Source: Verrucomicrobia bacterium LW23 (GTDB lineage Bacteria > Verrucomicrobiota > Verrucomicrobiia > Methylacidiphilales > UBA1321). From it: a stretch of DNA of 64,000 nucleotides. The notes under the pieces are model-generated. The model was not told the DNA's origin. It saw only the letters and a program-made list of their open reading frames with translations, and did not search any database. The position numbers and the translations under genes are program-made. Shown here one piece after another: positions 14,228 to 30,388 of the stretch. The stretch is taken from the NCBI GenBank assembly GCA_003054695.1, contig QAZA01000045.1:372001-436000 (forward strand), read 5' to 3'. The stretch's first letter is position 1; each line of letters opens with the position of its first letter.

Positions 14228-15430
14228 CTACGGCGCGGACGCCGGCGGAGCGGTGGGGATGGAGGCGGAGGCGGCCGGGCTGAGGGGGGCGGCCTGCGTG
14301 GTGGTGGTTGGCGGCAGGGGCGCCGAGAGGGGCGGGGCGTCGATGGGGCGGCCCACAATTATGCCGGCGTGGGATTTGAAGGTGGCGAGGTAGTCACTCA
14401 GGCGCACATCTACCAGCACGCGCTTGTGATTTTTGCTGGCGTGCATAAAGCGCAGCACGCCGCGTTCGTCGCGGTAGGCCAGGCCTACGTGCGAGCAGCA
14501 GCTGCCGTCGTATTTGGTGGTGATGCCGATAACGTCGCCGGTGCGGATCTGCTTCTCAATCTTCGCAACGTTCTCTTTGGGAATATGATACGTGGGAATC
14601 TGGCTCACCATCGCCTCCAGCTCGCCCATGGGGCCGACGAGCTGCGGGTTGGCGCGCAGGTAGCGGTAGCTTTTCCACAGCACCGTCATCTCCTTGGCTT
14701 TGCGGTAGATACGCACGCCGCCGAGCTTTTGGGTGGGGTTGGTGATGAGGCCGCGGCGCTCGTTCTCGTAGTACCATTCCTCCAGGTAGTGGAGGCGGCT
14801 GAGGTAGCTGCCGTTGCATACGCCGTTGCGGTAGCGGTCGCGCTCCACCTCGCGCAGAAGATCCTGCGGCGTAATGACCTGGCCATCCTTGTCCTTGATC
14901 AGCCGGGCAATGCCGAGCGTGATCTCGAAGAACGTCCAGCAATCCATCGCGTTCATGTTGACGGACGGCGCTTCGATATGGTCGTCGATCTCCAGGGTGT
15001 AATTGACGTAGGGCGTGCCGCAAATCTCGTAGCCCACCTTGGCAATGCGCTCGTGCAGCGGCAGCGAGGCCCAGCGGCCGGCGCGTGCCTTGGCAATCAC
15101 CTCGTTAAAGCGGTCGATGCCGACAAAAACGGTGTTGAAGGGAAGGGACGACGCGCGCTTTTTGGCGCTGGAGTTCCCGCCTCCCGCCTTCGCCACCGTA
15201 TCCTCCGGCTTCTTCGCCTTGCGCTCGGACTTTTTGGATGTGGTTGTGCCGGAATCGGTTGTGGCGGGAGCCTTCTTTTTCTTCGGCGCGTCGCTATCCG
15301 CCGCGCGTGCGGCGCTGATGAGAACGGGCGATGCGGCAGCAAGTCCGAGGCCAAGGGCCGCGGCCACCGCTACGGAATAGAGATGATGCCTTGCCCAGGC
15401 CAAAGCATTGGTAGAGAAAACGTTGCGCAT
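14228..15430 (-). CDS. Secreted DUF1460 (N-acetylmuramoyl-L-alanine amidase-like) protein
   Basis: 400 residues from the ATG at 15430, chosen because it precedes a hydrophobic signal sequence ending near AARA; the frame extends 22 codons further upstream. After a Lys/Ser-rich linker, residues about 105-375 match the DUF1460 family, which has an NlpC/P60-like cysteine peptidase/amidase fold. The predicted catalytic Cys164 (MDCWTF) and His314 (CSHVGLAYRD) are present, as is the family TPYVNYTLE segment. It probably acts on peptidoglycan in the periplasm. The C-terminal tail is Pro/Ala-rich. Substrate specificity is inferred from the family only. Confidence 0.85.
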   Translation of the reverse strand: MRNVFSTNALAWARHHLYSVAVAAALGLGLAAASPVLISAARAADSDAPKKKKAPATTDSGTTTSKKSERKAKKPEDTVAKAGGGNSSAKKRASSLPFNTVFVGIDRFNEVIAKARAGRWASLPLHERIAKVGYEICGTPYVNYTLEIDDHIEAPSVNMNAMDCWTFFEITLGIARLIKDKDGQVITPQDLLREVERDRYRNGVCNGSYLSRLHYLEEWYYENERRGLITNPTQKLGGVRIYRKAKEMTVLWKSYRYLRANPQLVGPMGELEAMVSQIPTYHIPKENVAKIEKQIRTGDVIGITTKYDGSCCSHVGLAYRDERGVLRFMHASKNHKRVLVDVRLSDYLATFKSHAGIIVGRPIDAPPLSAPLPPTTTTQAAPLSPAASASIPTAPPASAP

Positions 15431-15686
15431 GAAGCAGAGGGATGGGGGTAAGAGAAAGGCATGGCGACAATCCGCCGGCGCGCCAACCCTTGCCAAAGCA
15501 CGCCGCGCAGGAATCTACGCGATTCCCCCGAAAAAGCGAGCGAAGGAATATGGGTTTATGCTTCTTCTCATCCCGCCCCTCCCCCCCCCGGAGCTTGCGC
15601 CCCGGGGGGTGTATGTGTATGTCGCACCGTCTGTGCTTTGGAGAGCGCACGCCTCCACGGCACAGGCCTCGCGGCCTGCAAAGCGC

Positions 15687-16301
15687 TTAGCTTTCCTTGC
15701 GCAGCAGGGCTACCATAACGCCTTGCACAATAAGCTCTTGCGCGGGCAAAATGTTACGGTGGCGGGGGTTTTCTGCTTTGAGGTAGGGTTTGTTGTTCTG
15801 GACGACGTAGCGTTTGAGGGTGGTTTCGCCGTCGACGAGGGCGGCGACGATGGCGCCGTCGAAGGGGGCTTTGAACTCGAGGATGACGATGTCCTTGTCG
15901 AGTATGCCCGCGTTGATCATGCTGTCGCCGCGGACACGGAGCGCAAACGTGCGGATGCCTTTGGGCAGGCCGAGCGACTCGAGGTCGACGCGCACGCAGC
16001 CCTCATCGCTTTGCGTTTGCGGGGAGGAGGGGCCGGCGGGGATGGCACCGTAGATAGGGATGGAGCCAAGCTCGGTGTTGATGTCGTTGGTCAGCCGCAG
16101 GCCGCGGGCGATGCCGGACGTGCGGGTGAGCGCGCCTTTTTGCTCGATAAGGCGCAGGTGCCCGGCGACGGCGGCCACGCTTTTGAAGCCGAAGTGCTTC
16201 TGGATCTCGCGCCGGCTGGGAGGGATGCCCTGCTGCTGGCGATAGTGGGTGATGAAGTCGATGATTTCCTGCTGGCGGGCGGTTAATGCCATGGTGCTCA
16301 T
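15687..16301 (-). CDS. lexA: LexA repressor, SOS response
   Basis: 204 residues, the standard LexA length. An N-terminal winged helix (about 1-70, LTARQQEIIDFI) binds DNA. The C-terminal S24 peptidase domain has the catalytic dyad Ser127 (RGDSMINAG) and Lys163 (TTLKRYV). The self-cleavage bond is likely Ala89-Gly90 in GAIPAGPS. RecA-stimulated autocleavage releases DNA damage genes. A perfect palindrome, AAATGATC-TAAA-GATCATTT, lies 41-60 bases upstream of the start and is a plausible autoregulatory operator. The gene appears monocistronic. Confidence 0.97.
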   Translation of the reverse strand: MSTMALTARQQEIIDFITHYRQQQGIPPSRREIQKHFGFKSVAAVAGHLRLIEQKGALTRTSGIARGLRLTNDINTELGSIPIYGAIPAGPSSPQTQSDEGCVRVDLESLGLPKGIRTFALRVRGDSMINAGILDKDIVILEFKAPFDGAIVAALVDGETTLKRYVVQNNKPYLKAENPRHRNILPAQELIVQGVMVALLRKES

Positions 16302-16341
16302 GGGATTATGGTGATTTAAAAAGGCTAGATGCGCAAGTCGG

Positions 16342-16361
16342 AAATGATCTAAAGATCATTT
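16342..16361. promoter_or_regulatory. Candidate LexA operator
   Basis: A 20-base dyad, AAATGATC TAAA GATCATTT, lies 41 bases upstream of the lexA start codon. LexA normally represses itself from a palindrome in this position, and LexA motifs differ between phyla. No second copy was noticed in the window, so the assignment rests on position and symmetry only. Confidence 0.5.
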
Positions 16362-16569
16362 GAAATGGATGGAGAAACGCCTTGGCCAATGTGTAAGCTA
16401 TTGAGGAACAGCGGGATGCGTGGATCGAAGTGCTCAGTAAAATAGCGCAGATATTTTTACACGCGGGCCTCGTGATCATCTGCTCGAAACAGGGCGCTCA
16501 GCCGCTGAACTTCATTTTCCGCATTTCGCCCCATCGACATGCGGGGGCACTGAGGTTATAATTGCGGCA

Positions 16570-16941
16570 ATGTCCACAAGCCACGCAACCAATGTCCTGG
16601 GCGGTGATCTCCAGTGCTGCTGCAAGCAGCCGATGACCGGGTTTTACCGTGATGGCTTTTGTCACACCGGGCCCCAGGACCGCGGATTGCATGTGGTGTG
16701 CGCGGAGATGACGGAGGCGTTTTTGGAGTATACGCGCTTGCAGGGCAATGACTTATCGACGCCGATTCCGGAGTATCGCTTCCCCGGCCTGCGGCCCGGC
16801 AACCGCTGGTGCGTGTGCGTAACCCGCTGGCAGGAGGCCGCGCGCGCCGGCTGCGCCCCGCCGGTTGTGCTCGAGTCCACACACGTCTCCGCCCTGGAGT
16901 TTGTGACGCTGGAGGAGTTGCAGCGGTACGCGGTTAAGTAG
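16570..16941 (+). CDS. DUF2237 family protein
   Basis: 123 residues covering the whole family: NVLGG near the start, TGFYRDGFCHTGPQDRGLH, GNDLSTPIPEYRFPGL, GNRWCVCVTRWQEA and a C-terminal APPVVLESTH segment. The family is conserved in bacteria and some eukaryotes, has no established biochemical role, and is rich in conserved Cys and His. It is transcribed divergently from lexA across 268 bases that hold the candidate LexA site, so SOS control is possible but unproven. Confidence 0.92.
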   Translation: MSTSHATNVLGGDLQCCCKQPMTGFYRDGFCHTGPQDRGLHVVCAEMTEAFLEYTRLQGNDLSTPIPEYRFPGLRPGNRWCVCVTRWQEAARAGCAPPVVLESTHVSALEFVTLEELQRYAVK

Positions 16942-17085
16942 CGGCGCGCCCTTGGTGGGTGCGCCTTCGCCGGGATTTCTCCCAAAAAGCTCAGATCATT
17001 GGTCTGACTCACTGACGCTTCCCCGTGCAGGGTCCAGGGGGCCATGCATCAGCACGGCCCCCGGCAGAGGCAGGGAGGGGCGGTT

Positions 17086-19659
17086 TTACTCGGCCCAGGT
17101 GGTCAGGCGCAGCTCGTGCTTCTGGATCAGGTCCATGTGTTTGGGCAACACGCGTACGTTGAACTGGAAGCTGCCGCTGTCGATGGCGCGGACGGTGCCG
17201 CTGAAGGTGGTCCAGCCCTCGCCGGTAGCGGTGCCGGGCTCCAGCTCAAAGGTGTAGAACTGGTCGCGGCCGCCGGCGGAGCGCACGTAGGCTTCCACGC
17301 GCACGTCGTCGGGGGTAAGCTGGCCGAGGAAGACTTTGGTATCGACCTTGAACTGCTCGCCCACGCTTACCTTGGTGGTATTGGCCACCTTCCAGGTCAC
17401 GTCCTTGGCACGTACGCTGGGCCACAGGCTGCGGATCTTTTCCTTCCAGGCGGCGATGCCGCGGCTGCGGGCAAAGCCATTGGCCTGGAAATCCCGGCCG
17501 TGGGCCGCGGCGCCGCGGTAGAACTTGGTGGTGTAATCCTGCACCATGCGGAAGGTGTTGTACACGGGGCTGACCGTCTCGATGGAGTGGCGGCACCATT
17601 TCAGCCACTCGCGCGGGATGCCGTCGGCATCGCGGTTGTAGTAGAGCGGGGCCACGCGTTCCTCCAGCAGGCTGTAGATGGACACGGCGTCGAACTCGTC
17701 CTGGATGTGGGGGTCGGGCGAGGTGACTTCCTCGCCGATGGCCCAGCCGTTGGCGCCGTCATACGCTTCGTCCCACCAGCCGTCGCGCACGGAGAAGTTC
17801 AGGCCGCCGTTCGGCGGGACTTTCTCGCCGGAGGTGCCGGAGGCTTCGAGTGGGCGCGTGGGGTTGTTCATCCACACGTCCACGCCGTGGTACAGGTGGC
17901 GGGCCACGTTAATGTCGTAGTTCTCGACAAACAGGATGCGATCGCGGAACTGCGGCATTTGCGCCACCTGGTAGATGCGCTGGATGAGCTTTTTGCCGGG
18001 CTCGTCGGCGGGGTGCGCCTTGCCGGCAAAGAGGAACTGGATGGGGCGGTCCGGGTTGTTGACGATGGCGTCCAGGCGGTGCAGATCGCGGAACAGCAGC
18101 GTGGCGCGCTTGTAGGTGGCAAAGCGGCGGGCAAAGCCGATGGTGAGGATGTTGGGCTCCAGCACCTCGCTGGCCTGGCGGATCTCCTCCGCGCTAAAGC
18201 CGCTGCGCAGCTTTTGGTGGCGGGAGTTGTTGCGGGCAAAGGCGATGAGCTTGCTTTTGAGCGCCTGGTGCGTGGTCCAGAATTCTTCGTCGGAGAACTT
18301 GCTGTGCACCTTCCAGCTCTCGCGGCTGGAGACGCTGTCCTCCCAGAACGGCTTGCCGTCGCACGCTTTCTCAAACATCGCGCGGATTTCCGGGGCCATC
18401 CACGTGAGCGTGTGGATGCCGTTGGTGATGTGGTCGATGGGAATCTCCGGGTGCGGAACGCCGGGCCACACCACCTGCCACATTTTGCGGGAGACATCGC
18501 CGTGGATGGCGCTGACGCCGTTGGCCTGGCGGCTGGTGCGCAGGGCCAGGATGGTCATGGAGAAGGGCTCGTCGTGGCGCGCCTCCCAGCTGCGGCCCAG
18601 GCGCAGAAATTCGTCCTGCGTAATCTTCAGCTCATGCACCATCGCGCCAAAGTACCGGTTGATGAGGTCGGGATGGAACGCATCGTTGCCGGCGGGCACG
18701 GGGGTGTGCGTGGTAAACAGGGAGCTGGCGGCGACATACTGCAGCGCCTCGCTGAACTTCAGCCCGTGGTCCACAACGCCAACGCGCACGCGCTCCAGGG
18801 AGAGGAACGCGGCGTGGCCTTCGTTCATGTGGTACACGGCCGGCTTCAGGCCCATGGCCGCGATAGCGCGGGCGCCGCCGATGCCCAGCACAATCTCCTG
18901 CTTCACGCGCATCTCGTGGTCGCCGCCGTAAAGCTGAAAGGTGATGCGGCGGTCGTCCTCGGAGTTCTCCGGCACGTCGGTATCCATGAGGAAGAGGCGG
19001 ATCAGGCCGATTTTCACCTCCCACACCTTGACGTACACGTTGCGGCCGGGCAACGCCACGGTCACCGTCAGCGGCAGCTGGGCCTCGCCCGTGCGGACTT
19101 CGGACAGGGGGAGTTCCTCAAACTTCCAGTGAATCTGCTCGCTCTCCTGCCAGCCATCCTTGTTGATGCGCTGCTTGAAGTAGCCCATGCGGTACAGCAG
19201 GCCCACGGCGATGAAAGGGATGCCGAGATCCGACGCTGCCTTGCAGTGGTCGCCGGCGAGGATGCCGAGGCCGCCGGAGTAGATGGGCAGGGACTCGTGG
19301 AAGCCGAACTCCGCCGAGAAGTAGGCGACGAGGTTGTTGGTCTCCTTGTCCGCATAGGTTTTGCGGTACCAGCGGTCCGGCTTGTTGAGGTAGGCGTGCA
19401 GCTCGTCGACAACCTCGTTAAGGTGGGCGACAAAGCTGGGGTCATCGGCCGCGGCCCGCAGGGCCACCTGGCGCACGTCGCGCAACAGGCGGGCGGGGTT
19501 GTGGCCAACGTCTTCCCATAGCTGAGGATCGAGCCGGCGAAAGAGGGCGATGGCCTTGTCAGTCCAGGACCACCAGAGGTTGTAAGCGAGCTCCCGCAGG
19601 GGCTCCAGGCGAGTAGGCAATTGGGGGATTACGGAGAAGCTGTGGGGCCAGTGTGCCAT
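17086..19659 (-). CDS. glgP: Alpha-glucan (glycogen/maltodextrin) phosphorylase, GT35
   Basis: 857 residues from the ATG at 19659, which gives the MAHWPHSFSVIPQLP start; the frame is open 30 codons further but that extension has no coding character. The N-terminal region (about 15-125, NLWWSWTDKA) is the DUF3417 domain of the short alpha-glucan phosphorylase subfamily. The pyridoxal-phosphate lysine is near residue 613 in GTSGEKVPPNGGLNFSVRDG. It releases glucose-1-phosphate from alpha-1,4-glucans in the cytoplasm. The malQ gene at 42489-44204 encodes a partner activity for maltodextrin use. The upstream gene is divergent and the downstream gene convergent, so it is probably transcribed alone. 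Confidence 0.93.
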   Translation of the reverse strand: MAHWPHSFSVIPQLPTRLEPLRELAYNLWWSWTDKAIALFRRLDPQLWEDVGHNPARLLRDVRQVALRAAADDPSFVAHLNEVVDELHAYLNKPDRWYRKTYADKETNNLVAYFSAEFGFHESLPIYSGGLGILAGDHCKAASDLGIPFIAVGLLYRMGYFKQRINKDGWQESEQIHWKFEELPLSEVRTGEAQLPLTVTVALPGRNVYVKVWEVKIGLIRLFLMDTDVPENSEDDRRITFQLYGGDHEMRVKQEIVLGIGGARAIAAMGLKPAVYHMNEGHAAFLSLERVRVGVVDHGLKFSEALQYVAASSLFTTHTPVPAGNDAFHPDLINRYFGAMVHELKITQDEFLRLGRSWEARHDEPFSMTILALRTSRQANGVSAIHGDVSRKMWQVVWPGVPHPEIPIDHITNGIHTLTWMAPEIRAMFEKACDGKPFWEDSVSSRESWKVHSKFSDEEFWTTHQALKSKLIAFARNNSRHQKLRSGFSAEEIRQASEVLEPNILTIGFARRFATYKRATLLFRDLHRLDAIVNNPDRPIQFLFAGKAHPADEPGKKLIQRIYQVAQMPQFRDRILFVENYDINVARHLYHGVDVWMNNPTRPLEASGTSGEKVPPNGGLNFSVRDGWWDEAYDGANGWAIGEEVTSPDPHIQDEFDAVSIYSLLEERVAPLYYNRDADGIPREWLKWCRHSIETVSPVYNTFRMVQDYTTKFYRGAAAHGRDFQANGFARSRGIAAWKEKIRSLWPSVRAKDVTWKVANTTKVSVGEQFKVDTKVFLGQLTPDDVRVEAYVRSAGGRDQFYTFELEPGTATGEGWTTFSGTVRAIDSGSFQFNVRVLPKHMDLIQKHELRLTTWAE

Positions 19660-19922
19660 AGGTAAGTGAGATGGTGTTAGCGCGGGGGGAACCGCAGTCC
19701 CGACCCCGCATGGGGTCAATCTGTCCTTTCCTGTCTGCTGTCCTGTCAAAAGCGCCCCCTATAAAACTCCCTTTACCCGCCAAGGGAAATACAAAAAGCA
19801 TGTGCAATGATGGCAGGAATGAAAAAAGTGGCGGGCGTGTGGACGAGGAGTGTCGGCACCCGGGGATTTGGGGTGGCAAGCGCGCCGCGGTTGGCTAAGC
19901 TGGCCATTACCGCGCAGACGCA

Positions 19923-20648
19923 ATGGCTATGCTACACGTCGTCGAAATTATCGATAAGCTTATGCAGGGAGCGACCGAGCCGCTGCTGTGCAGAGCGGAA
20001 GACGGCAAGCTTTACGTGGTTAAAGGCAAACACGCTGGGAACCGGGCGCTTATCTGCGAGTGGCTGGGCGGGCATCTGGCGCGTGAGCTTGGATTGCCGG
20101 TGCCGCCCTTCGCGTTGCTTCGCCTCAGCCCTGGATTGCTCGCCGGTTCGGCAGACGTGGCTAAGGCAGGACTGCTTGGCGACGGCACGCTCTTTGGATC
20201 AGAGTTTCAGCCGCTGCACGAGGAAATTGGGCAGGACATCGTGGAGTCTGTAGACGAGAGGCTTCGTGCCACAATCCTGCTGTTTGACTGGTGGACAGGG
20301 AACGCCGATCGAACCCTTGTGGACGGCGAGGGAAATCCCAATCTGCTATGGTCCGAACTCACGGAGGAGATTCAGGTTATCGACCACAATCTCACCTTCG
20401 ATTTTTCGTGTAAGCCAGGTATTTTTCGCAGCTATCACATATTCAGAGATAGTGCTGTATGGCTGCGTAATGAAGCGTTTCGTGCAGACGTAGCCCGGAA
20501 GATGGAAGCTGCGATTGATACGATTCCCCCATTGTGGCGCAGCTTGCCGGAGGAATGGACAGAGTCGGAAAATCACCTTACACTTCCTTACCTGCATGCC
20601 TATCTGTCCCGCTTTCGTGGGGATACGTTCTGGAGCGAACTTCTATGA
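19923..20648 (+). CDS. HipA-like kinase domain protein
   Basis: 241 residues resembling the catalytic half of HipA-type Ser/Thr kinases (short HipA_2-like form), without the N-terminal subdomain-1 of classic HipA. Lys-containing strand KLYVVKGK, the catalytic loop FDWWTGNADRT and the metal-binding DHNLTFD are visible. Its stop overlaps the start of the DUF3037 gene in ATGA, so the two are translationally coupled. Pairing of this kinase type with DUF3037 recurs in bacteria as far as I recall, and a toxin-antitoxin-like or signalling role has been suspected by analogy to HipBA. No HipB-type DNA-binding protein is next to it. The target is unknown. Confidence 0.8.
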   Translation: MAMLHVVEIIDKLMQGATEPLLCRAEDGKLYVVKGKHAGNRALICEWLGGHLARELGLPVPPFALLRLSPGLLAGSADVAKAGLLGDGTLFGSEFQPLHEEIGQDIVESVDERLRATILLFDWWTGNADRTLVDGEGNPNLLWSELTEEIQVIDHNLTFDFSCKPGIFRSYHIFRDSAVWLRNEAFRADVARKMEAAIDTIPPLWRSLPEEWTESENHLTLPYLHAYLSRFRGDTFWSELL

Positions 20649-21064
20649 CAACTTCGTATGTATGTAACTATGCGCCGTTACGATTGTTGCCGTACCGGGA
20701 CACAGGAGAGTTCATCAATGTTGGAGTGCTGTTGCACTGCGCGGAAGCCGACAACTTTTTTGGCTGGCGCGGGTACACCGACGAGTATGACAGAATCGCG
20801 CGCTTTTTCCCTGAGCTGGACGGCGACCTGGTAAGGAAGCGTCTCGCGCACTTTGTGGAGGATATTCTCAGTAACGGCTCAAACCGGGTGCGCGCCGGCG
20901 AGCCAACCCAGCGCTTTCGGGAATTGGTCCGTCCGCGCGAAGGGTTCCTTCACTTTGGCCCTATTGGTACTGTAATGGCCGCAGATCCCCGGCAGGCGCT
21001 TGACGAGCTGTACCACCGCTTTGTGGGGCGCAACCTGCGTCGCGAAGAGTCGGCGGCGTCCTGA
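20645..21064 (+). CDS. DUF3037 family protein
   Basis: 139 residues from the ATG at 20645, which overlaps the stop of the HipA-like gene by four bases. The N-terminal segment YAPLRLLPYRDTGEFINVGV is characteristic of DUF3037. The function is unknown. The family is repeatedly found beside HipA-like kinases, which suggests a two-protein module in which it regulates or is modified by the kinase; this is inference from context. The upstream open frame beginning at 20534 is ignored because it lies inside the kinase gene. Confidence 0.82.
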   Translation: MTTSYVCNYAPLRLLPYRDTGEFINVGVLLHCAEADNFFGWRGYTDEYDRIARFFPELDGDLVRKRLAHFVEDILSNGSNRVRAGEPTQRFRELVRPREGFLHFGPIGTVMAADPRQALDELYHRFVGRNLRREESAAS

Positions 21065-21121
21065 ACGGGAATGCGGTGCCCCAAGCGCCTGGAGTTCCGT
21101 CCGTGCCGGCTCGCATCCGCG

Positions 21122-21448
21122 TCAGCCCTTCATCGTGGCCAGCATCCAGAAGACGACGACCAGGAAGATGAAGAGCAGGAGGAAATCCAGACCGCTGAGC
21201 GACTTGACGCAGCACTGGACGAGTTTGCCCTTGGCGGGCATGGCGGCGAGGATCTCATCGCTCAGCCCAAGCGTGGTAATCGGCTTCCAGCTGGAGCGCA
21301 CGTGGCGTTCGCCATCGCCTTCCGCGTACACCACAGCGGCTTTGGAGAGCGTGCCGCATCGGCACATGTCCAGCAGTTCCTCGTACGTAACGGGGCCGCC
21401 TTTGGTGGCGCGATCGGCGTAATAGTAGTGCTTTATCGCTGCTTCCAT
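21122..21448 (-). CDS. Small GYF_2-domain membrane protein
   Basis: 108 residues. The N-terminal part (HYYYADRATKGGPVTYEELL, about 7-60) is a GYF_2/DUF4339 domain, thought to bind proline-rich peptides. A single hydrophobic segment at about 87-104 (FLLLFIFLVVVFWML) anchors the C-terminus in the membrane. A second protein with the same N-terminal domain is encoded at 62106-62840. The window has several proteins with long proline-rich regions that could in principle be ligands, but no specific partner is indicated. Confidence 0.75.
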   Translation of the reverse strand: MEAAIKHYYYADRATKGGPVTYEELLDMCRCGTLSKAAVVYAEGDGERHVRSSWKPITTLGLSDEILAAMPAKGKLVQCCVKSLSGLDFLLLFIFLVVVFWMLATMKG

Positions 21449-21766
21449 AGTGTGTGTATGAGGCTAACCTGCCACGGAGTGGGGACTCCGCAAGCGGCAA
21501 GGCGACATTTTTTCACTCGCGCGATGTCGCCACCATCACGTCCCTCACGGGTCGGGAAAATCGCTCAGCGCAGCGTTCATTGTGTGTATTATGTGTACAT
21601 CGATTCTGCGATTGTACTAGATCAGCGCGCAAGGTAGCGTTTACTTGCGATGGCATCCTTGCAGCGCATGCCGGCCGCGGTCTATCGCCTCGCTCGCTCG
21701 CTCCCCCCGCCCGGCCGATTTCTCCTCTCCTCTCTCCTCTCAGCTCCGTATCCGTACTTCCCCCGC

Positions 21767-24700
21767 ATGAAAAAGCTCTTCCCTTCTCTCTCCCGCGCCG
21801 CACGCGCCGCCCTGGTGCTTGGCGTGGCCTGGACGTGCGTTGCCCTCTGCCCTCTCCCTGCCGCTGCGCAGGATGTGGAGAACCCCACCAGTAATAACCG
21901 CGAGATCTCCGTCGTCCCCACCCCGGGCGCGGTGGTGATTGACGGCAAGGACACAGACTGGGACCTCTCCGCCGGTATCTGGAGCTATAACGACCCGACG
22001 CTGGTAAAGAAATACGGCGTGTGGACGCATATGATGTGGGATGACAAAGGCGTCTACCTGCTGATGCGCTACACGGACAACACGCCGCTGAAGAACGCCA
22101 CGCGCGGCGAGGATTTCCACAAGAGCTGGCAGGCTGACGCCTTCCAGGGCCGCGTCGTCTTTGACGAAAAGACGCCCGAGGAGCACCAGATGCACATCAA
22201 CATCTTCCACAGCAGCACGGAGGATCGCGATTACATGATCGTCAAGCACGGCGGCTTTAAAGCCAAGCCCCCCTACGATGGCACCGGGCCGGATCGCCCC
22301 GATCAGCTGGAAAAATTTGGCGGCACCATGGATAAAGCCGGTGGCAAGGTGGCGCTTGCGCCCTGGGCGGATGGCAAGGGCTACAACCTGGAGGCCTTCT
22401 GGCCGTGGAGCTTTGTGCGCACCAACGGGCAGGCGCTCAAGCCGGGCGAGAGCTTTATCTTTGGCCTGGAAGCCATGTGGGGCGACGCCAAAGGCGAGCG
22501 CGTGGAGCACCGCCTCGTCGATAACATGCGCGATGACAAGGTCAACCGTATCTTCTTCTTCCGCGCCCGCGACGGCTGGGGCAAGGCGGTTATCAGCGAC
22601 AAAGGCAAGCTGGACATCACCGCCGCGCAAAAGGCGCTGCAGGAGGCGCGCCTCAAGCAGTTCGTCAATTACGATACGGAAGGGCCCGTGCCCATCACCT
22701 ACTCCCTGCCGGAGGATCGCGACGTCACCATCGCCATCGATAACGAAAAGGGCGAGCGCGTGCGCAATCTCATCGGCCAGTTCCCCCGCAACAAGGGCAA
22801 TGTTACGGACTACTGGGACGGCCTCGACGATAAAGGCAACGCGGTGCCGCCCGGCACCTACAAAGTCACCATCGTGGACCACGCGCCCTTGACGGTAAAG
22901 TTCGTCAACAGCCTCTACAACGCAGGCACGCCCCCGTGGGCCACCGCCGACGGCAAAAAGAGCTGGGGCAGCAACCACGGCGAGCCTACCACCGTGGCTA
23001 CCCGCGGCGACGTAACACTATGCGGCTTTACCGGCACCGAAGGCGCCCCCGGCCTGCTGCGCGCCACGCCCGAGGGCATTGTGATGTGGAGCGATGTGAC
23101 GGAGCTGCAGGACATTACGCTGGACGACAAGTACGTCTATATCGTCAGCCGCGAGAGCTGGACCAAGCGCACCATGGTGCGCAAGTTTGACGTGAAAACC
23201 GGCGCGCTGATGCTCTTCGAGAACGCCGAGCGCAGCACGGAATCCGTTCTGCCCGTGCCGGTTGCGGAGGTGAAGGACGCCACCATCGCCATGGCCGGCG
23301 GCAAGCTCTTCCCCATGGTGCTGGGCAAAGGCCTCTGGCGGCTGGATCCGGCCACCGGCGCGATCGAAGCCACGCTGACCATGCCCGAGGGCCTCGTCGC
23401 CGTAAAGGAGCACGGCAACAAGCTGTACGGCATGTTCCGCGACGGCGCTATTGCCGAGCTGGACGCCGATGCGAAACGCGGCGCCACGGTCATCGCCCCC
23501 AACCTGCTGAAGGTAGCCAGCGAGAATGCGCCGGAGAGCGCCCCCGCCCGCTTCAACTTTAGCCAGGACGGCCAGCTCATCGCCATCAGCGACCACCGCA
23601 CCAATCAGGTCTTCATCTACAACACCAAAGGCGAGCTGCACCAGACGCTGGGCAAAGCCTACAAGGCCGAGGACGGCGTGCGCCCGGCCGGCAAATTTAT
23701 CGAAACCAACTTTATCGATCCCCACGGCCTGGCCTTTGACAGTAAAGGACGCCTCTGGGTCGCCGAGGCCGAAAGCACGTGCCGCCGCGTCACCGTGTGG
23801 ACGCCGGAAGGCAAACTGGACAAGCAGTTTTGGGGCGGGGCGGATTACGGCGCGATGGCCGGTTTTCCCCTCACCTACGACAGCACCCGCTTTGTCGCCC
23901 GCGGCATCGAGTTTCAGCTCGATCCCAACCCGGACATCATGAACCGCCCCACGGCGGAGAAAGCGCTCTACTTCCACCCCCTGCTGGGCAAGGATCGCGG
24001 CTACATCTACAAGGTCAACGGGCACGAGTACGCGATGAACATGCCCGGCAGCAAGCAACCCAACTTCTGGCTGGCCAAGCGCAACAAGGAGGGCGTGTTC
24101 GTCCCCGTCGTCGAGGTGCAGTACGGTAATGCCCGCGCCAAGGACCCCGCCCTGAAGGAAGGCACCGCGTGGATCGACAAGAACGAGGACGGCAAGCGCG
24201 ACGCGGACGAGCTGTTCAAGGGCGTCAAGGGCACCAGCCATTACTGGACGTCCGGCTGGATGCGGCCCGACCTGACGGTTATCACCGCCGACCAGTGGGT
24301 CTACCCCGTCAAGTCCTTCACCCCCGGCGGCGTGCCGATCTACGACTTTGCCAACGCGCAGGAGCCCGCGCACAAGATTACGCGCGATGGCTTCCACGCC
24401 CAGGGCAGCACGGGCACCATCGTCATGGACGACGCCGGTAATGTCAGCAACGGCATCGCCTACGCCACGGCCGACGGCCGCACTGGCGCGTACCCGAATC
24501 CCTACGGCCGGCACGACGCGCCCGCCGCCCGCCGCGGCCTCCTCATCGCGCCCTTCCGCACCAACGGTGTGGTGGAGAAGGTGCCGGGCGTAGGCAGCAT
24601 TACCGTATTGGGCGGCGACCGCGGCGAGTGGTTCGTGATGTCGATGGACGGCCTCTACATCTCCAGCCTCTTTCAGGACAGTAAAGGCGAGGTGACGCTG

Positions 24701-25618
24701 GACGACAACTTTCTGGGCCAGGAGTCCTTCGGCGGCTTTATCTGGCGCGACGAAAAAGGCCGCGTGATGATGCAGGTGGGCGGCCCGTCCTTCCGCATCA
24801 TGGAGCTCCACGGCCTGGAAACGACGCGCAAGGAGATGAAAACGGTACAGGTCAGCGCCGAGCAAATAGCCGCGGGGCTGAAGCTGGCCGAGAAGAAAGC
24901 CGCGCAACGCCCGAGCGAACCCGAGTCGCTGGTCATCGAGCGGCTGAAGAACGCCCCGCCCACCGCCGCTATCCCGGCCGATATCAGCAGCAAAGTCTCG
25001 CTGATTGAAGGAGCGGAGACCGTGCGGGTGCAGGAGAGCGGCGATCCGAACCGCTGGTTCCGCACCGCCCTGGCCCACGATGGCAAGAACCTCATTGTTG
25101 CCTGGCTCGTCAACGACGCCAACCCGTGGAAGAACGGCGAAGGCCGCTTCAGCCACAGCTTCATTGGCGGTGACTGCGTGGACCTGAAGCTGGACGTGCC
25201 CGGCCGCGGCCCCATCCGCGTCCTGGTCTCCCCCATAGGCGGCAAGGCGGAGGTCACCTACTGGCAAAGCAAGAGCGACAAGCCCGAGAACCCCACCACG
25301 TACGTCGTGGCCAATAACGAGGGCAACGCCCAGAAGTTTGACGTCGTCAAACGCCTGGAGAAGGCGAAGGTGGAAGTCGCCAAAGGCGAGAACAAATACA
25401 CCGTCCTCCTCACCATCCCCCTGGCCGAGCTGGGCATCGACCTCAAAACCACCTCAGAGCTCAAAGGCCTCGTCGGCGTCATCTTCAGCGACCCAAGCGG
25501 TACCAACCGCGCCAGCCGCCTCTATTGGAAGGACAAAACCACCGGCATGGTCTCCGACGTCCCCAGCGAAGCCAAGCTGGACGCCAGGAACTGGGGGCAG
25601 ATCAAGATCGGCAAGTAA
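21767..25618 (+). CDS. Large secreted CBM9-like / NHL-type protein
   Basis: 1283 residues from the ATG at 21767, chosen because MKKLFPSLSRAARAALVLGV starts a signal peptide ending near AAAQ; the frame extends 39 codons upstream. Residues about 48-230 resemble a family 9 carbohydrate-binding/DOMON-like fold (DGKDTDWDLSAG). A FlgD-like Ig segment follows at about 310-380 (DGLDDKGNAVPPGTYKV), then beta-propeller-like repeats including an NHL-type unit at about 645-690 (IDPHGLAFDSKGRLWVAEAE). A second CBM9-like domain occupies about 1075-1283. Such proteins are common in polysaccharide-degrading Verrucomicrobiota and Planctomycetota. No catalytic glycosidase signature is visible. A strong terminator follows at 25651. 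Confidence 0.85.
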   Translation: MKKLFPSLSRAARAALVLGVAWTCVALCPLPAAAQDVENPTSNNREISVVPTPGAVVIDGKDTDWDLSAGIWSYNDPTLVKKYGVWTHMMWDDKGVYLLMRYTDNTPLKNATRGEDFHKSWQADAFQGRVVFDEKTPEEHQMHINIFHSSTEDRDYMIVKHGGFKAKPPYDGTGPDRPDQLEKFGGTMDKAGGKVALAPWADGKGYNLEAFWPWSFVRTNGQALKPGESFIFGLEAMWGDAKGERVEHRLVDNMRDDKVNRIFFFRARDGWGKAVISDKGKLDITAAQKALQEARLKQFVNYDTEGPVPITYSLPEDRDVTIAIDNEKGERVRNLIGQFPRNKGNVTDYWDGLDDKGNAVPPGTYKVTIVDHAPLTVKFVNSLYNAGTPPWATADGKKSWGSNHGEPTTVATRGDVTLCGFTGTEGAPGLLRATPEGIVMWSDVTELQDITLDDKYVYIVSRESWTKRTMVRKFDVKTGALMLFENAERSTESVLPVPVAEVKDATIAMAGGKLFPMVLGKGLWRLDPATGAIEATLTMPEGLVAVKEHGNKLYGMFRDGAIAELDADAKRGATVIAPNLLKVASENAPESAPARFNFSQDGQLIAISDHRTNQVFIYNTKGELHQTLGKAYKAEDGVRPAGKFIETNFIDPHGLAFDSKGRLWVAEAESTCRRVTVWTPEGKLDKQFWGGADYGAMAGFPLTYDSTRFVARGIEFQLDPNPDIMNRPTAEKALYFHPLLGKDRGYIYKVNGHEYAMNMPGSKQPNFWLAKRNKEGVFVPVVEVQYGNARAKDPALKEGTAWIDKNEDGKRDADELFKGVKGTSHYWTSGWMRPDLTVITADQWVYPVKSFTPGGVPIYDFANAQEPAHKITRDGFHAQGSTGTIVMDDAGNVSNGIAYATADGRTGAYPNPYGRHDAPAARRGLLIAPFRTNGVVEKVPGVGSITVLGGDRGEWFVMSMDGLYISSLFQDSKGEVTLDDNFLGQESFGGFIWRDEKGRVMMQVGGPSFRIMELHGLETTRKEMKTVQVSAEQIAAGLKLAEKKAAQRPSEPESLVIERLKNAPPTAAIPADISSKVSLIEGAETVRVQESGDPNRWFRTALAHDGKNLIVAWLVNDANPWKNGEGRFSHSFIGGDCVDLKLDVPGRGPIRVLVSPIGGKAEVTYWQSKSDKPENPTTYVVANNEGNAQKFDVVKRLEKAKVEVAKGENKYTVLLTIPLAELGIDLKTTSELKGLVGVIFSDPSGTNRASRLYWKDKTTGMVSDVPSEAKLDARNWGQIKIGK

Positions 25619-25650
25619 GCGCCGCCCGCAGCCCGATTCCCCCTCCCTCG

Positions 25651-25693
25651 CGCCCGCCCTGCGACACAAACGCAGCGCGGGCGCTTTTGTTTT
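25651..25693 (+). terminator. Rho-independent terminator
   Basis: A GC-rich stem CGCCCGCCCTGCG / CGCAGCGCGGGCG around a 7-base loop ACACAAA, followed by CTTTTGTTTT. It starts 33 bases after the stop of the secreted CBM9-like gene and should end that transcript. Confidence 0.88.
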
Positions 25694-25844
25694 GGAGAGC
25701 GGCGATATCTGAATCTGCCTCGCCTTTGTCCTGGCGATCTTTTCGTCCCTGGTGTCAAAAGCTCCCCTGGTCGTTCATCACACAGATTCAAACGTCCGGC
25801 TCCGCCGTTCTCGGTATAGCGGCTTTGCCGGCTGCCGGTAACGT

Positions 25845-26222
25845 TTATTCCTTTACGGGCGCCGCTTCTACTGGTGCCGAGGCGGCGTGGGCGCTGAGGA
25901 TGCTCTGCAGGAGGCCGGGGAAGCGCTCGTTGAGCTCGCGGCAGCGCAGGCGGCTGAAGAGTTCGACGCCGCGGCGCTCGCTGCGGATGAGGCCGGCTTC
26001 GCGAAGGATGAGGAAGTGCTGGCTGCAGGTGGATTTGGGGAGGCTTTGCTTCACCCGCTCCATCGTTTCGACACAGTTGATCCCGTCCCCGCCGTCGGGT
26101 GGCACGCAGCGTTCCTGCTCCTTAAGCGCGGCCACGATGGCCAGGCGCGTGGGGTCTGCCAGGGCGTGCAGGATGCCGTGGAGGGTGATTTCGTCGGGGG
26201 ATGGATGGCGGAGCGGTCTCAC
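25845..26222 (-). CDS. ArsR-family transcriptional regulator
   Basis: 125 residues with the ArsR winged helix: LHALADPTRLAIVAALKEQE, then CSQHFLILREAGLIRSERRGVEL as recognition helix and wing. Two Cys residues (ERCVPP, INCVE) lie near the N-terminal helices but no classical metal-binding ELCVCDL box is present, so the inducer may be redox or organic rather than arsenite. It is divergent from the old yellow enzyme at 26368, with a dyad 16-42 bases upstream of its start. A redox or electrophile sensor controlling an ene-reductase is a known arrangement and is the likeliest role. Confidence 0.88.
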   Translation of the reverse strand: MRPLRHPSPDEITLHGILHALADPTRLAIVAALKEQERCVPPDGGDGINCVETMERVKQSLPKSTCSQHFLILREAGLIRSERRGVELFSRLRCRELNERFPGLLQSILSAHAASAPVEAAPVKE

Positions 26223-26237
26223 GAAGGGCGGGGGGGA

Positions 26238-26264
26238 TCGTATCGTATAGAGAATAAGATACGA
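26238..26264. promoter_or_regulatory. Candidate operator of the ArsR-type regulator
   Basis: TCGTATC and GATACGA are perfect inverted half-sites separated by 13 bases of AT-rich sequence, directly upstream of the regulator and about 100 bases upstream of the divergent ene-reductase. The position suits control of both genes. It is inferred from symmetry only. Confidence 0.45.
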
Positions 26265-26367
26265 AAAAAAGTTGCGCGGGCAATAGTTCTGTTGTTCCTT
26301 TTTCCTGAACTTAGGCCGTTGTGCTTAGTTCGGGCAGTCTTGCAGTCACACCTCTATTCTACATCCT

Positions 26368-27462
26368 ATGTCCACTTCCGCTACCTCTCTGCTTCTGCAG
26401 CCGGTTCTCATCGGCGAGTTTAACCTGCGCAACCGCCTGGTGATGGCGCCGCTTACCCGTTGCCGCTCGGCGGCCGGGCGCGTGCCGACGCCGCTGATGG
26501 CCGAGTACTACGCCCAGCGCGCCGGCGCGGGCATGATTATCTCCGAGGCAACCAGTGTAACTCCTCAGGGCGTGGGCTATCCCAACACCCCGGGCATCTG
26601 GAGCGAGGAGCAGGTGGAAGGCTGGAAGCAGGTAACCGAGGCGGTGCATGCGCGCGGAGGCACCATTTTGCTGCAGCTGTGGCACGTGGGGCGCATGTCC
26701 GCCCCGCTGTACCTTAACGGCGAGCTGCCCGTGGCGCCCAGCGCCTTGCGTCCGGATGGCAATGTGAGCCTGGTGCGGCCGAAGCAGGAGTTTGTGACGC
26801 CGCGCGCCCTGCGTCTGGATGAAATCCCCGGCGTGGTGGAGGCCTTCCGCAAGGGTGCGGAGAACGCGAAGCGGGCCGGCTTTGACGGCGTGGAGATTCA
26901 CGGCGCCAACGGCTACCTGCTGGATCAGTTTCTGCAGGACAGCACCAACCTGCGCGACGACGAGTACGGCGGGCCGATCGAAAACCGCGCGCGCCTGATG
27001 CTGGAGGTTACCGATGCGGTGATTTCCGTGTGGGGCCCCGGCCGCGTGGGCATGCACCTGGCGCCGCAGGCCGATGTGCACGGCATGGGCGACTCCAACC
27101 TGGCGGCCACGTTTGGCTATGTGGCCAGGGAGCTGGGCAAGCGCGGCATCGCGTTTATCTGCGCGCGCGAGAGCGTGGATAATCCGAAGCGCCTGGGTCC
27201 GCAACTGAAGGCGGCGTTTGGTGGCGCGTACATTGTCAATCAGGGGCTTACAAAAGCCAGCGCCGAGCACGCGATTGCTGAGGGCGAAGCCGAGGCCGCC
27301 GCGTTTGGCGTCCTCTACATCGCCAACCCCGATCTGGAACGCCGCTTTGCCCTGGGCGCTCCCCTCAACACGCCCACGCCGGAGACCTTCTACGAAGGTA
27401 ATGGCGAGGACTATACGGTGGGCTATACGGACCAGCCTGCGCTGGAAACCGCTGCAGCGTAA
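26368..27462 (+). CDS. Alkene reductase, old yellow enzyme family
   Basis: 364 residues, full length for NemA/OYE flavoproteins. The FMN-binding barrel is recognisable from NRLVMAPLTRCRS, the substrate-binding HGANGYLLDQFLQDSTN segment, and the C-terminal GGAYIVNQGLTKASAEHAI phosphate-binding region. These enzymes use NAD(P)H to reduce electrophilic C=C bonds, N-ethylmaleimide, nitrate esters and quinone-like compounds. Divergent transcription from an ArsR-type repressor suggests induction by such electrophiles. No operon partner follows: the next gene is convergent. Confidence 0.94.
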   Translation: MSTSATSLLLQPVLIGEFNLRNRLVMAPLTRCRSAAGRVPTPLMAEYYAQRAGAGMIISEATSVTPQGVGYPNTPGIWSEEQVEGWKQVTEAVHARGGTILLQLWHVGRMSAPLYLNGELPVAPSALRPDGNVSLVRPKQEFVTPRALRLDEIPGVVEAFRKGAENAKRAGFDGVEIHGANGYLLDQFLQDSTNLRDDEYGGPIENRARLMLEVTDAVISVWGPGRVGMHLAPQADVHGMGDSNLAATFGYVARELGKRGIAFICARESVDNPKRLGPQLKAAFGGAYIVNQGLTKASAEHAIAEGEAEAAAFGVLYIANPDLERRFALGAPLNTPTPETFYEGNGEDYTVGYTDQPALETAAA

Positions 27463-28558: not shown

Positions 28559-28837
28559 GGAGGCGTTGGGGGGTGCGGGATGCAGGGGCAAGGTTGAAGT
28601 CGGGGAAAAAGCGCACGCAGCATAGCCGGGGCATGCGGAGAGCGCGAGCGAAACACGCGGCACAGGGGCAGGCGGGGCGGAGCCTCTGCGCCGGTGCGCC
28701 TTTATCTGTACCAGAAGTTTCACGGGCTAAAGATTATTCAATTGCGTACAGCCTAAAGTATGGCAACAAAGGAGGGCAGCTACCCGCGGGCCGACCATCG
28801 ACTGTGCGCCCGCGCCCGCCCTTTGTATACCGCCGCC

Positions 28838-30388
28838 ATGCACTTCCCCGCTCTTGCCTTTCTTCCTTCCCTCGCCGCCCGGCCGTATGCCGGGTTGCGG
28901 TGCGCGGCCGTGGTGCCGGCATGGCTGTGGCTGCTGGGGCTGCACGTGGCGTTGATGGCGTGCGTGGCGGTGACCGCAAAGGCGGAGATTCCATGCCTGC
29001 GCGCCCTGGCCGGCCCCGCGGCTGCCGGTTTGGCGCCGTTTACGGATGGCGCGCCCGTTCCGTCGCACTCTCCCGCCGCCACCAACAGTACTCCGGCGGT
29101 GCGGGCTATCGTCACCAACCTGGGCGGGCCATCGTCCGTACCGGCCGCCACTAACGCGCCCGCGGTCCAGAGCTCGCCGGGCCTGCTCTCCAGCCCTGCC
29201 GCGCCGGGCATTACGGCGCCGGCGCCGCGCAGCACCCGGCCGGTGTACCCGCCCGCGGACGACATGCAGAACGGCGGCGGGCTCCTCGGCACCACGTCCG
29301 ACTCCAGCACCGCGGACGCCGGCGCGGGCCCCGACGGCCATCACACGGGCAAAGGTTCCAGCATCCGGCTGCTCGATTCCTCGCCGCTCTCCAGCAAGGA
29401 CGCCGCGCCGGGCATTGCCGACGCCTCCGACCACGAGACCGGCCACGAGAAGCCGGTCGTCGTCAGCATAAGCCTGCGCGTGCTGAATTTTGAGCGCGTG
29501 GATACCAAAAACGGCACCTTCCGCTTTGCCGGCCAGCTGATTGCGGAGTGGGATCCCAGCAGCGTCCCGCCCAAACTGCGCGGTATCAGCCCCAGCGTGC
29601 AGCCGCCCTCGCGTGGCGCGCGGCTAATCCCGGGGCCGTGGAAGGGCTGGGAGCCATCGTTGATCATGATGAACATCCTCGCGGATGTGAACATGGGGCA
29701 TCCCGTGTACTTTTTGCTGAGTAACGGGCGTGTACGAGCGGAAGTCCGTTTTTCAGCGCCCAGTGTGGCATCGCGAATGGATTTTTGCCATTTCCCCTTC
29801 GACACGCAATTTCTGGTGCTGGAGATGGCGCCGGGCGGCGACAATCTGCTGCCGGTGCGGCTGGAGCCGTTGGAGAAGGAGTTTCGCGTGGACAAGGACG
29901 TGCGGCTTTCCGAGTGGCGCATCCAGGGCGCCAGCGCTTACTCCACCATGAGCAACCGCGTGCACTTTTGCGTGGAGGTGCGCCGCTACTGGGGCCACTA
30001 CGTCGGCAACATCTTCCTGCCCATGTTTATTATTGTGGCGGTAAGCTACGCCACCATGTGGGTGCCGCGCAATAACCTGCCCGGCGCGTGCAGCCTGGTT
30101 GGCATCACCATCGCCAGCCTGTTTTTGCTGAAGCTGACCGTGAGCCAGGAGCTGGCGCGCACCGATGGCCTTACGTTTCTGGACGCCATTGCCATCTTCC
30201 ACGTGGCGGCCGCGGCTACGGCGGCCACGCTTAACGTCGTCATTGCCCGCCTGTGGAGGGAGTTGCCGGATCCCCTGGACGAAGGCCCGGCGCGTATGCC
30301 GCGCATTGCTTTCCCCATCGCCTACTTTGCGGGCTGGGTGCTGATTGCCATTTACTACTTTATGTGGCTGGACCACGTGCACGGGTAG
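28838..30388 (+). CDS. Bacterial pentameric ligand-gated ion channel homologue (Cys-loop superfamily)
   Basis: 516 residues from the ATG at 28838. After a hydrophobic signal-like segment (about 25-48) comes a stretch of some 150 residues rich in Pro, Ala, Ser and Thr. From about 205 a beta-sandwich ligand-binding domain begins (VVVSISLRVLNFERVDTKNG, with a WDPS strand typical of loop D). The signature Pro-loop reads DFCHFPFDTQF near 315, with no flanking cysteine pair, as in prokaryotic members such as GLIC and ELIC. Four membrane helices follow: M1 about 388-409, M2 416-442 (pore-lining), M3 446-473, a short basic/acidic linker, and M4 490-511 ending almost at the C-terminus. The ligand and ion selectivity cannot be read. 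The long disordered N-terminal extension is unusual for this family. Confidence 0.82.
   Translation: MHFPALAFLPSLAARPYAGLRCAAVVPAWLWLLGLHVALMACVAVTAKAEIPCLRALAGPAAAGLAPFTDGAPVPSHSPAATNSTPAVRAIVTNLGGPSSVPAATNAPAVQSSPGLLSSPAAPGITAPAPRSTRPVYPPADDMQNGGGLLGTTSDSSTADAGAGPDGHHTGKGSSIRLLDSSPLSSKDAAPGIADASDHETGHEKPVVVSISLRVLNFERVDTKNGTFRFAGQLIAEWDPSSVPPKLRGISPSVQPPSRGARLIPGPWKGWEPSLIMMNILADVNMGHPVYFLLSNGRVRAEVRFSAPSVASRMDFCHFPFDTQFLVLEMAPGGDNLLPVRLEPLEKEFRVDKDVRLSEWRIQGASAYSTMSNRVHFCVEVRRYWGHYVGNIFLPMFIIVAVSYATMWVPRNNLPGACSLVGITIASLFLLKLTVSQELARTDGLTFLDAIAIFHVAAAATAATLNVVIARLWRELPDPLDEGPARMPRIAFPIAYFAGWVLIAIYYFMWLDHVHG

Follow-up and report, generated by a model that had tools for sequence, protein, structure and literature searches.

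A 64,000-nucleotide stretch of Verrucomicrobia bacterium LW23 (contig QAZA01000045.1; hereafter the window) carries a gene for a HipA-type kinase followed at once by a gene for a DUF3037 protein. The locus raises the question of what such a pair does in the absence of HipB, and of what the small size of its DUF3037 protein implies for the answer.

The kinase and its DUF3037 partner

The two genes and their overlap are listed in Table 1. The kinase was matched by the HipA_2 model over positions 1-239 of 240 and the partner by the DUF3037 model over its full length (1-118 of 118). Both proteins were assigned to PDC-M66 by PADLOC (A, the kinase; B, the DUF3037 protein), although the match of the partner to PDC-M66B (8.6e-14) covered only positions 5-135 of 281. 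Neither protein had an NCBIfam match. The pair accounted for the single HipA_2 match and the single DUF3037 match in the source genome (6.61 Mb, 56 contigs).

The sequence-only reading had described a short HipA-type kinase without the N-terminal subdomain, a four-base overlap between the genes and the absence of HipB, and each of these descriptions held. Indeed, E. coli HipA could be aligned with the kinase only from approximately residue 138, and no match to Couple_hipA (PF13657) was found in the kinase or anywhere in the source genome. Both ORFs lie at the coordinates given previously, and the overlap was read directly as ATGA, which is consistent with translational coupling of the two genes. 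A Pfam scan of 10 genes around the pair showed a sole HTH protein, of AraC type, located approximately 6 kb away.

Table 1. Features of the kinase/DUF3037 locus, numbered from the first base of the window.
Feature	Position	Strand	Evidence
HipA_2-type kinase, proposed toxin; 241 aa	19923..20648	+	Pfam PF20613, 2.3e-65; PADLOC PDC-M66A, 2.6e-16
DUF3037 protein, short form, proposed HipD-like antitoxin; 139 aa	20645..21064	+	Pfam PF11236, 2e-24
Overlap of kinase stop and DUF3037 start (ATGA, 4 bases)	20645..20648	+	direct sequence reading

Searches by sequence identified no solved structure for the kinase or for the DUF3037 protein alone, and profile searches of solved structures returned only designed proteins and other unrelated matches (E 0.12 or worse). 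An AF2 model of the kinase, generated from an alignment of 41 rows from which some near-copies had been removed by hand, had a pLDDT of 93.9. The solved folds closest to this model were, in order, CtkA (Z 13.4-14.4; best 197 residues, rmsd 3.3), PI4KII (Z 12.3-13.2; best 220 residues, rmsd 3.8), HipT (Z 11.6-11.8; best 188 residues, rmsd 3.5, aligned almost end to end) and HipA (Z up to 11.5, 187 residues, rmsd 3.3). The HipA chain 3dnt_B gave Z 10.9 over 190 residues (rmsd 3.3), and in the E. coli HipA rows 3dnt, 3dnu, 3dnv and 3fbr the model was aligned only from about residue 138 onward. CtkA of Helicobacter and PI4KII, the closest folds, shared 12-17% identity with the kinase, and we know of no DUF3037 partner for either. 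Two structure rows were titled bacterial kinase only and were assigned to HipT through the available portion of PMC9325769.

Residues K34, E46, D122, N127, D129, R130 and D154 were identical in all 67 kinases compared, including that of the window; N140 was kept in 64, and the P-loop carried Ser or Thr at position 18 in 53. By analogy with HipA, we take the invariant residues to include the ATP lysine and its glutamate, a catalytic aspartate, and an asparagine and an aspartate that bind metal. The putative catalytic residues are thus present in the window kinase, with their roles assigned by that analogy.

Pairing, distribution and genomic surroundings

The association of the two families was examined in 51 loci retrieved from named genomes by a scan with the kinase alignment, a retrieval that was blind to DUF3037. 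A DUF3037 gene lay directly downstream of the kinase in 46 of these, and at at least three of the 46 (L073, L082 and L090) the kinase was broken in the reading that was taken. The five loci lacking DUF3037 were one kinase at a contig end (L089) and four distant kinases of Acidobacteriota (L091-L094; 24-29% identity). The four-base overlap was exact in 53 of 68 distinct pairs, a set from which the duplicates L051 (a Lentisphaerae MAG whose kinase equals L008) and L068 (Pontiellaceae, equal to L011) had been dropped. For the partner start, the in-frame start codon closest to the end of the kinase gene was taken, a rule that favours overlaps and cannot create an in-frame ATGA.

Of 288 genomes of the PVC phylum, 16 contained HipA_2 and 19 contained DUF3037. 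Thirteen of 18 HipA_2 places were paired with DUF3037; the remaining five comprised two at contig ends, one below the family cut-off, one weak match and one on contig C6 of genome G293. At this last locus (L015), a 136-aa ORF at 1100-1507 (-) overlaps the kinase stop and by eye resembles a diverged short DUF3037 protein, with no Pfam DUF3037 match. Of the 20 DUF3037 places, 13 were paired and seven (L025, L026, L034, L037, L040, L041 and L042) had no recognised HipA_2 kinase within 1.5 kb; the gene upstream of L034 has a weak DUF1828 match. DUF3037 is therefore not solely a kinase partner and may, judging from these sequences, serve other toxins. The HipA_2 family likewise occurs outside the pair, since a Peribacillus kinase (L099, 3986-4762 (+)) lies directly behind a glycosyltransferase gene without DUF3037; this protein also matches PI3_PI4_kinase above the cut-off. 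The pairing that the sequence-only reading had called constant was therefore nearly so in the kinase-retrieved loci, with the exception of the four Acidobacteriota kinases, and looser in the PVC phylum (13/18 and 13/20). The neighbourhood survey which that reading proposed found the pairing to be common rather than rare.

Kinase and partner have also diverged together. Distances between kinases and between DUF3037 domains were correlated over 63 pairs with a Mantel r of 0.875, and the maximum in 500 permutations was 0.18.

Relatives of the pair were found on mobile elements. The coliphage PhiR5_1 (PV340545) carries one between cI and kil, annotated as HipA toxin and HipD antitoxin, and further relatives are on plasmids. 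Three records listed as plasmids (NZ_LT559118.1, NZ_AP026896.1 and NZ_CP119140.1) are 2.2-11.9 Mb long and are probably chromosomes. A tblastn search of viral contigs with the kinase alone gave no relative. Genome G264 carries the pair twice, on separate contigs (L010 and L023).

In the order to which the source genome belongs, DUF3037 was found in one of 60 genomes, the source genome itself. There the pair forms a two-gene unit, with the adjoining glucan phosphorylase and GYF genes on the other strand. The 10 scanned neighbours also include a CBM9/FlgD-like protein and Sua5, and none of them matched PADLOC, so that the pair is not located in a defence island here. The G+C content was 0.53-0.59 over the pair; its surroundings were mostly at 0.60-0.66, apart from one further dip, to 0.56. 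The glucan phosphorylase gene was present in relatives, but in four genomes searched as far as 15 kb past it, none of 16 other window genes was matched. The GYF gene was present in one of 20 relatives, again only the source genome. No empty insertion site was found through either neighbour, and the argument for horizontal arrival is for that reason drawn from patchiness and G+C. Taken together, the patchy distribution, the lower G+C and the ordinary neighbours point to acquisition of the pair alone by horizontal transfer. Elsewhere in the window, a 542-aa protein encoded at 28760-30388 (+) matched PF02931 (neurotransmitter-gated channel ligand-binding) at 7.9e-5, below the curated cut-off, and could be a bacterial protein related to pentameric ligand-gated channels.

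Length classes of the DUF3037 partner

The lengths of the partners in the 68 distinct pairs were bimodal. Nine were 124-142 aa, none was 160-250 aa, and the rest were approximately 268-325 aa. The window partner belongs to the short class; it stops at the DUF3037 boundary and is about half as long as the usual partner, an architecture of which the sequence-only reading made no mention. Short partners were also found in G287 (of the same class as the source genome), a gammaproteobacterial MAG, a Rubrivivax MAG, Streptomyces, Nonomuraea and Bacteroides, and thus recur across Bacteroidota, Actinomycetota, Pseudomonadota and the PVC phylum. Two further short partners, in Idiomarina (L087, 913-1713) and Hymenobacter (L097, 3989-4837), come from long HipD genes interrupted at the same domain junction by a single in-frame TAG, and the second half is still readable behind it in these two cases only.

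To search for remnants of the C-terminal half, 61 long C-termini were used by tblastn, together with a profile made from them, on the 2 kb behind each short partner. Two long positive controls were recovered at 1e-33 or better and, among the short partners, only L087 and L097 retained the second half. Truncation of the window partner by a frameshift or stop was considered and rejected, the best C-terminal match in the 2 kb downstream having an E of 0.54. The C-terminal half of three long partners gave no Pfam match at E below 0.01, and for this reason it is not named DUF1829 here. Loss of an operator palindrome along with the C-terminal half was likewise rejected: the mean best arm was 5.3 at 57 long loci and 5.5 at eight short loci, and palindromes at both were indistinguishable from shuffles. 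Scanning for promoters and terminators yielded no signal beyond that expected by chance.

The history of the short form was followed in kinase trees of 67 of 74 distinct loci, seven kinases shorter than 215 aa having been dropped. (The locus table omits L015-L017 and L020-L022, where the kinase is partial or weak or a recognised partner is lacking, as well as L001-L002, which are the window again, and the DUF3037-anchored loci L025-L043.) In a quick tree, the window kinase fell within a group of 56 with moderate support (81-90), in which all partners besides that of the window were long except three. In a more careful tree of these 56, with the 11 outer rows removed, the four short rows required four changes, and the count was four at both ends of the bootstrap range. 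A single origin of the four was rejected (p-AU 0.00807), although the well-supported branches alone force only two changes and the AU test is weakened by long branches (L053 with L014) and by the first tree having been viewed beforehand. On the assumption that the long partner is ancestral in this group, the simplest reading of the sequences would be repeated loss of the C-terminal half, with DUF3037 alone being enough. Because short partners stand in four places and one origin was rejected, DUF3037 by itself probably forms the neutralising core, and the tail is probably dispensable.

A probable minimal HipAD-type module and its possible mode of action

The sequence-only reading held that a module of this kind had not been described in detail. 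That view was mistaken: PDC-M66 is in PADLOC, and HipAD (DS-6) has been published with knock-outs and a catalytic mutant (PMC12548924, PMC13092281; here and below, as far as the accessible text of these papers extends). In Retron-Sda1, the HipA/DUF3037 pair protected against phage Bas51 without the retron, deletion of HipA abolished defence, deletion of DUF3037 was toxic, and the authors concluded that the toxin is neutralised by DUF3037 (PMC12548924). DS-6, identified with DefensePredictor and since renamed HipAD, pairs a HipA-like kinase with a protein that combines DUF3037 and DUF1829; defence was lost in a catalytic mutant of DS-6A, and AlphaFold3 predicted a DS-6A:DS-6B complex and, less strongly, DNA binding (PMC13092281). 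HipAD is a newly described defence module for which, in these papers, the way in which the antitoxin works was modelled and not demonstrated (PMC12548924, PMC13092281). The available part of a HipA phylogeny paper (PMC8262856) makes no mention of DUF3037, and the literature search returned no experiment on a short-form DUF3037 partner or on the window locus.

The window proteins resemble PDC-M66 and Retron-Sda1 in forming a two-gene unit and in matching PDC-M66A and B, and differ from Retron-Sda1 in that no reverse transcriptase was present among the 10 neighbours and no Rfam match was found in 15000-27000. HipD of HipAD is approximately 275 aa and has a C-terminal half (DUF1829 in DS-6B, PMC13092281), whereas the window partner is 139 aa. 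In other respects the window pair is like HipAD/DS-6 and PhiR5_1, with the kinase first and DUF3037 second, a four-base overlap, and the same kinase family and invariant residues, at approximately 31% identity to PhiR5_1 HipA (PV340545). The name HipAD is reportedly due to Brenes and Laub (2025). Since its second protein lacks the C-terminal half, the pair is filed here, by its sequence, as a short variant of HipAD/PDC-M66 and not as HipAD as described.

Resemblance to the classical systems was more limited. As in HipBST, the kinase lacks N-subdomain 1, adjoins a small separate protein and has a HipT-like fold (Z 11.6-11.8), but no HipB lies beside the pair, no Couple_hipA/HipS was found by sequence in the genome, and DUF3037 follows the kinase. 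The atypical kinase fold is shared with HipBA of E. coli and Shewanella (3dnt_B, Z 10.9); unlike HipBA, the window pair lacks HipB and N-subdomain 1, and HipA_2 and HipA_C are separate Pfam families.

The pair is best explained as a minimal HipAD-type (PDC-M66) two-gene toxin-antitoxin module, a reading to which we assign a probability of approximately 0.7 and which agrees with the joint, non-canonical toxin-antitoxin function suggested from the sequence alone. By analogy with the relatives, defence would be its most likely role. In this model, the product of the upstream gene would be an atypical HipA_2 kinase of Ser/Thr type whose free form arrests the cell, and the downstream gene, coupled to it in translation, would supply a short DUF3037 protein that holds the kinase inactive by binding it. 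On infection or some other shock, the DUF3037 protein would be removed or titrated, and the freed kinase would phosphorylate a host target and stop growth, which could serve phage defence; by analogy with HipA and HipT, the most obvious candidates for that target would be aminoacyl-tRNA synthetases. Because the window partner consists of DUF3037 without the other half, neutralisation would have to depend on DUF3037, and autorepression by a C-terminal half would be absent. The anatomy of the locus, the pairing, the intact invariant residues, the co-divergence, the patchiness and the separate short forms support this reading, and in relatives the kinase was needed for defence, loss of DUF3037 was toxic and a catalytic mutant gave no defence (PMC12548924, PMC13092281). 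Counted against it are the DUF1829 second domain of the tested DS-6B, missing from the window protein, the absence of PADLOC matches among the 10 neighbours, the seven of 20 DUF3037 places without a kinase and the approximately 31% identity to PhiR5_1 HipA.

That the pair stands by itself among ordinary genes, none of the 10 matching PADLOC, would also suit a regulatory kinase with DUF3037 as an adaptor that recruits it to, or activates it for, a substrate in a metabolic or developmental switch without any toxin-antitoxin function, and the location of short-form relatives in a biosynthetic region of Streptomyces and, in Bacteroides, amid glycoside hydrolases fits the same idea. We consider it unlikely, given the toxicity of the DUF3037 deletion and the loss of defence on kinase deletion in Retron-Sda1 (PMC12548924), and given a distribution in the order (1/60) unlike that of a housekeeping function. 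Less probable still is a decaying HipAD remnant that lost the C-terminal half of HipD and no longer works. The half-length partner would be expected of such a remnant, and the single in-frame TAG at the junction in Idiomarina and Hymenobacter shows a possible route to it; against this, both ORFs are intact and matched end to end by their Pfam models, every invariant kinase residue is retained, no C-terminal remnant lies within 2 kb, and partners of 124-142 aa recur in four groups with none of 68 at 160-250 aa.

Within the toxin-antitoxin reading, a mechanism may be sought in HipS, which has five strands and three helices and blocks the ATP site of the kinase through the P-loop, according to the available text of PMC9325769 and PMC10653801. 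A likeness to HipS was expected before the structural search because the window kinase lacks that very subdomain. The DUF3037 model (pLDDT 84.4, 40 rows) had five strands and four helices. A Foldseek search of the PDB gave no hit with an E of 0.001 or below, and four viral proteins, presumed phage relatives, matched the model (TMq 0.57-0.64, best E 8.8e-5). In a second structural comparison of 993 chains, 33 chains (31 entries) reached Z 2 or above and none Z 5. Rank 1 was Shewanella HipA residues 7-108 (Z 3.1, 77 residues, rmsd 4.2) and rank 2 was residues 1-102 of 7vkb chain B, taken as Legionella HipS (Z 2.8, 74 residues, rmsd 4.7), with HipS 8ezr at rank 5 (Z 2.7) and E. coli HipA 2-108 at rank 14 (Z 2.2). 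HipA N-subdomain 1 or HipS thus accounted for ranks 1 and 2 and for four of the 31 entries, each aligned along almost its entire length, at Z values (2.2-3.1) low enough to arise commonly by chance. In a profile comparison with 28 Couple_hipA sequences, DUF3037 scored 18.9 (0/198 shuffles as high; reversed, 15.8), and with a broader alignment 16.6 (7/198 shuffles as high). The first hairpin, the most conserved stretch of DUF3037, was mostly outside the profile alignment with HipS. No paper naming both HipS and DUF3037 was found in the literature search.

From these models, the DUF3037 protein might be a very diverged HipS, that is, HipA N-subdomain 1 acting in trans, which would displace the kinase P-loop as HipS does with HipT. 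This proposal is tentative and, on balance, doubtful. The top-ranking structural rows, the HipS-like count of strands and helices, the missing N-subdomain 1 and the prevalence of Ser/Thr at P-loop position 18 (53/67) argue for it; the low Z values, the empty Foldseek search, the unconvincing profile scores and the position of the conserved hairpin argue against it. The hipST gene order, the reverse of the kinase-DUF3037 order, also counts against it. If it were true, HipAD would be a split HipA whose missing subdomain has returned as a translationally coupled antitoxin acting via the P-loop, the tail-less window protein would be its natural minimal form, and HipAD, HipBST and HipBA would be united in one mechanism.

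What is new at the window locus is the architecture, a tail-less partner in a module that was already known. The missing tail hints at the half of the antitoxin that matters, in a family whose relatives protect against phages (PMC12548924, PMC13092281), and a small complex would bring the mechanism of neutralisation, as well as the possible link to HipS, within reach of direct tests. The separate occurrence of the short form in several lineages suggests that a DUF3037-only partner is sufficient; if so, the neutralising unit would shrink to approximately 130 residues and the second half of the protein would be an optional addition.
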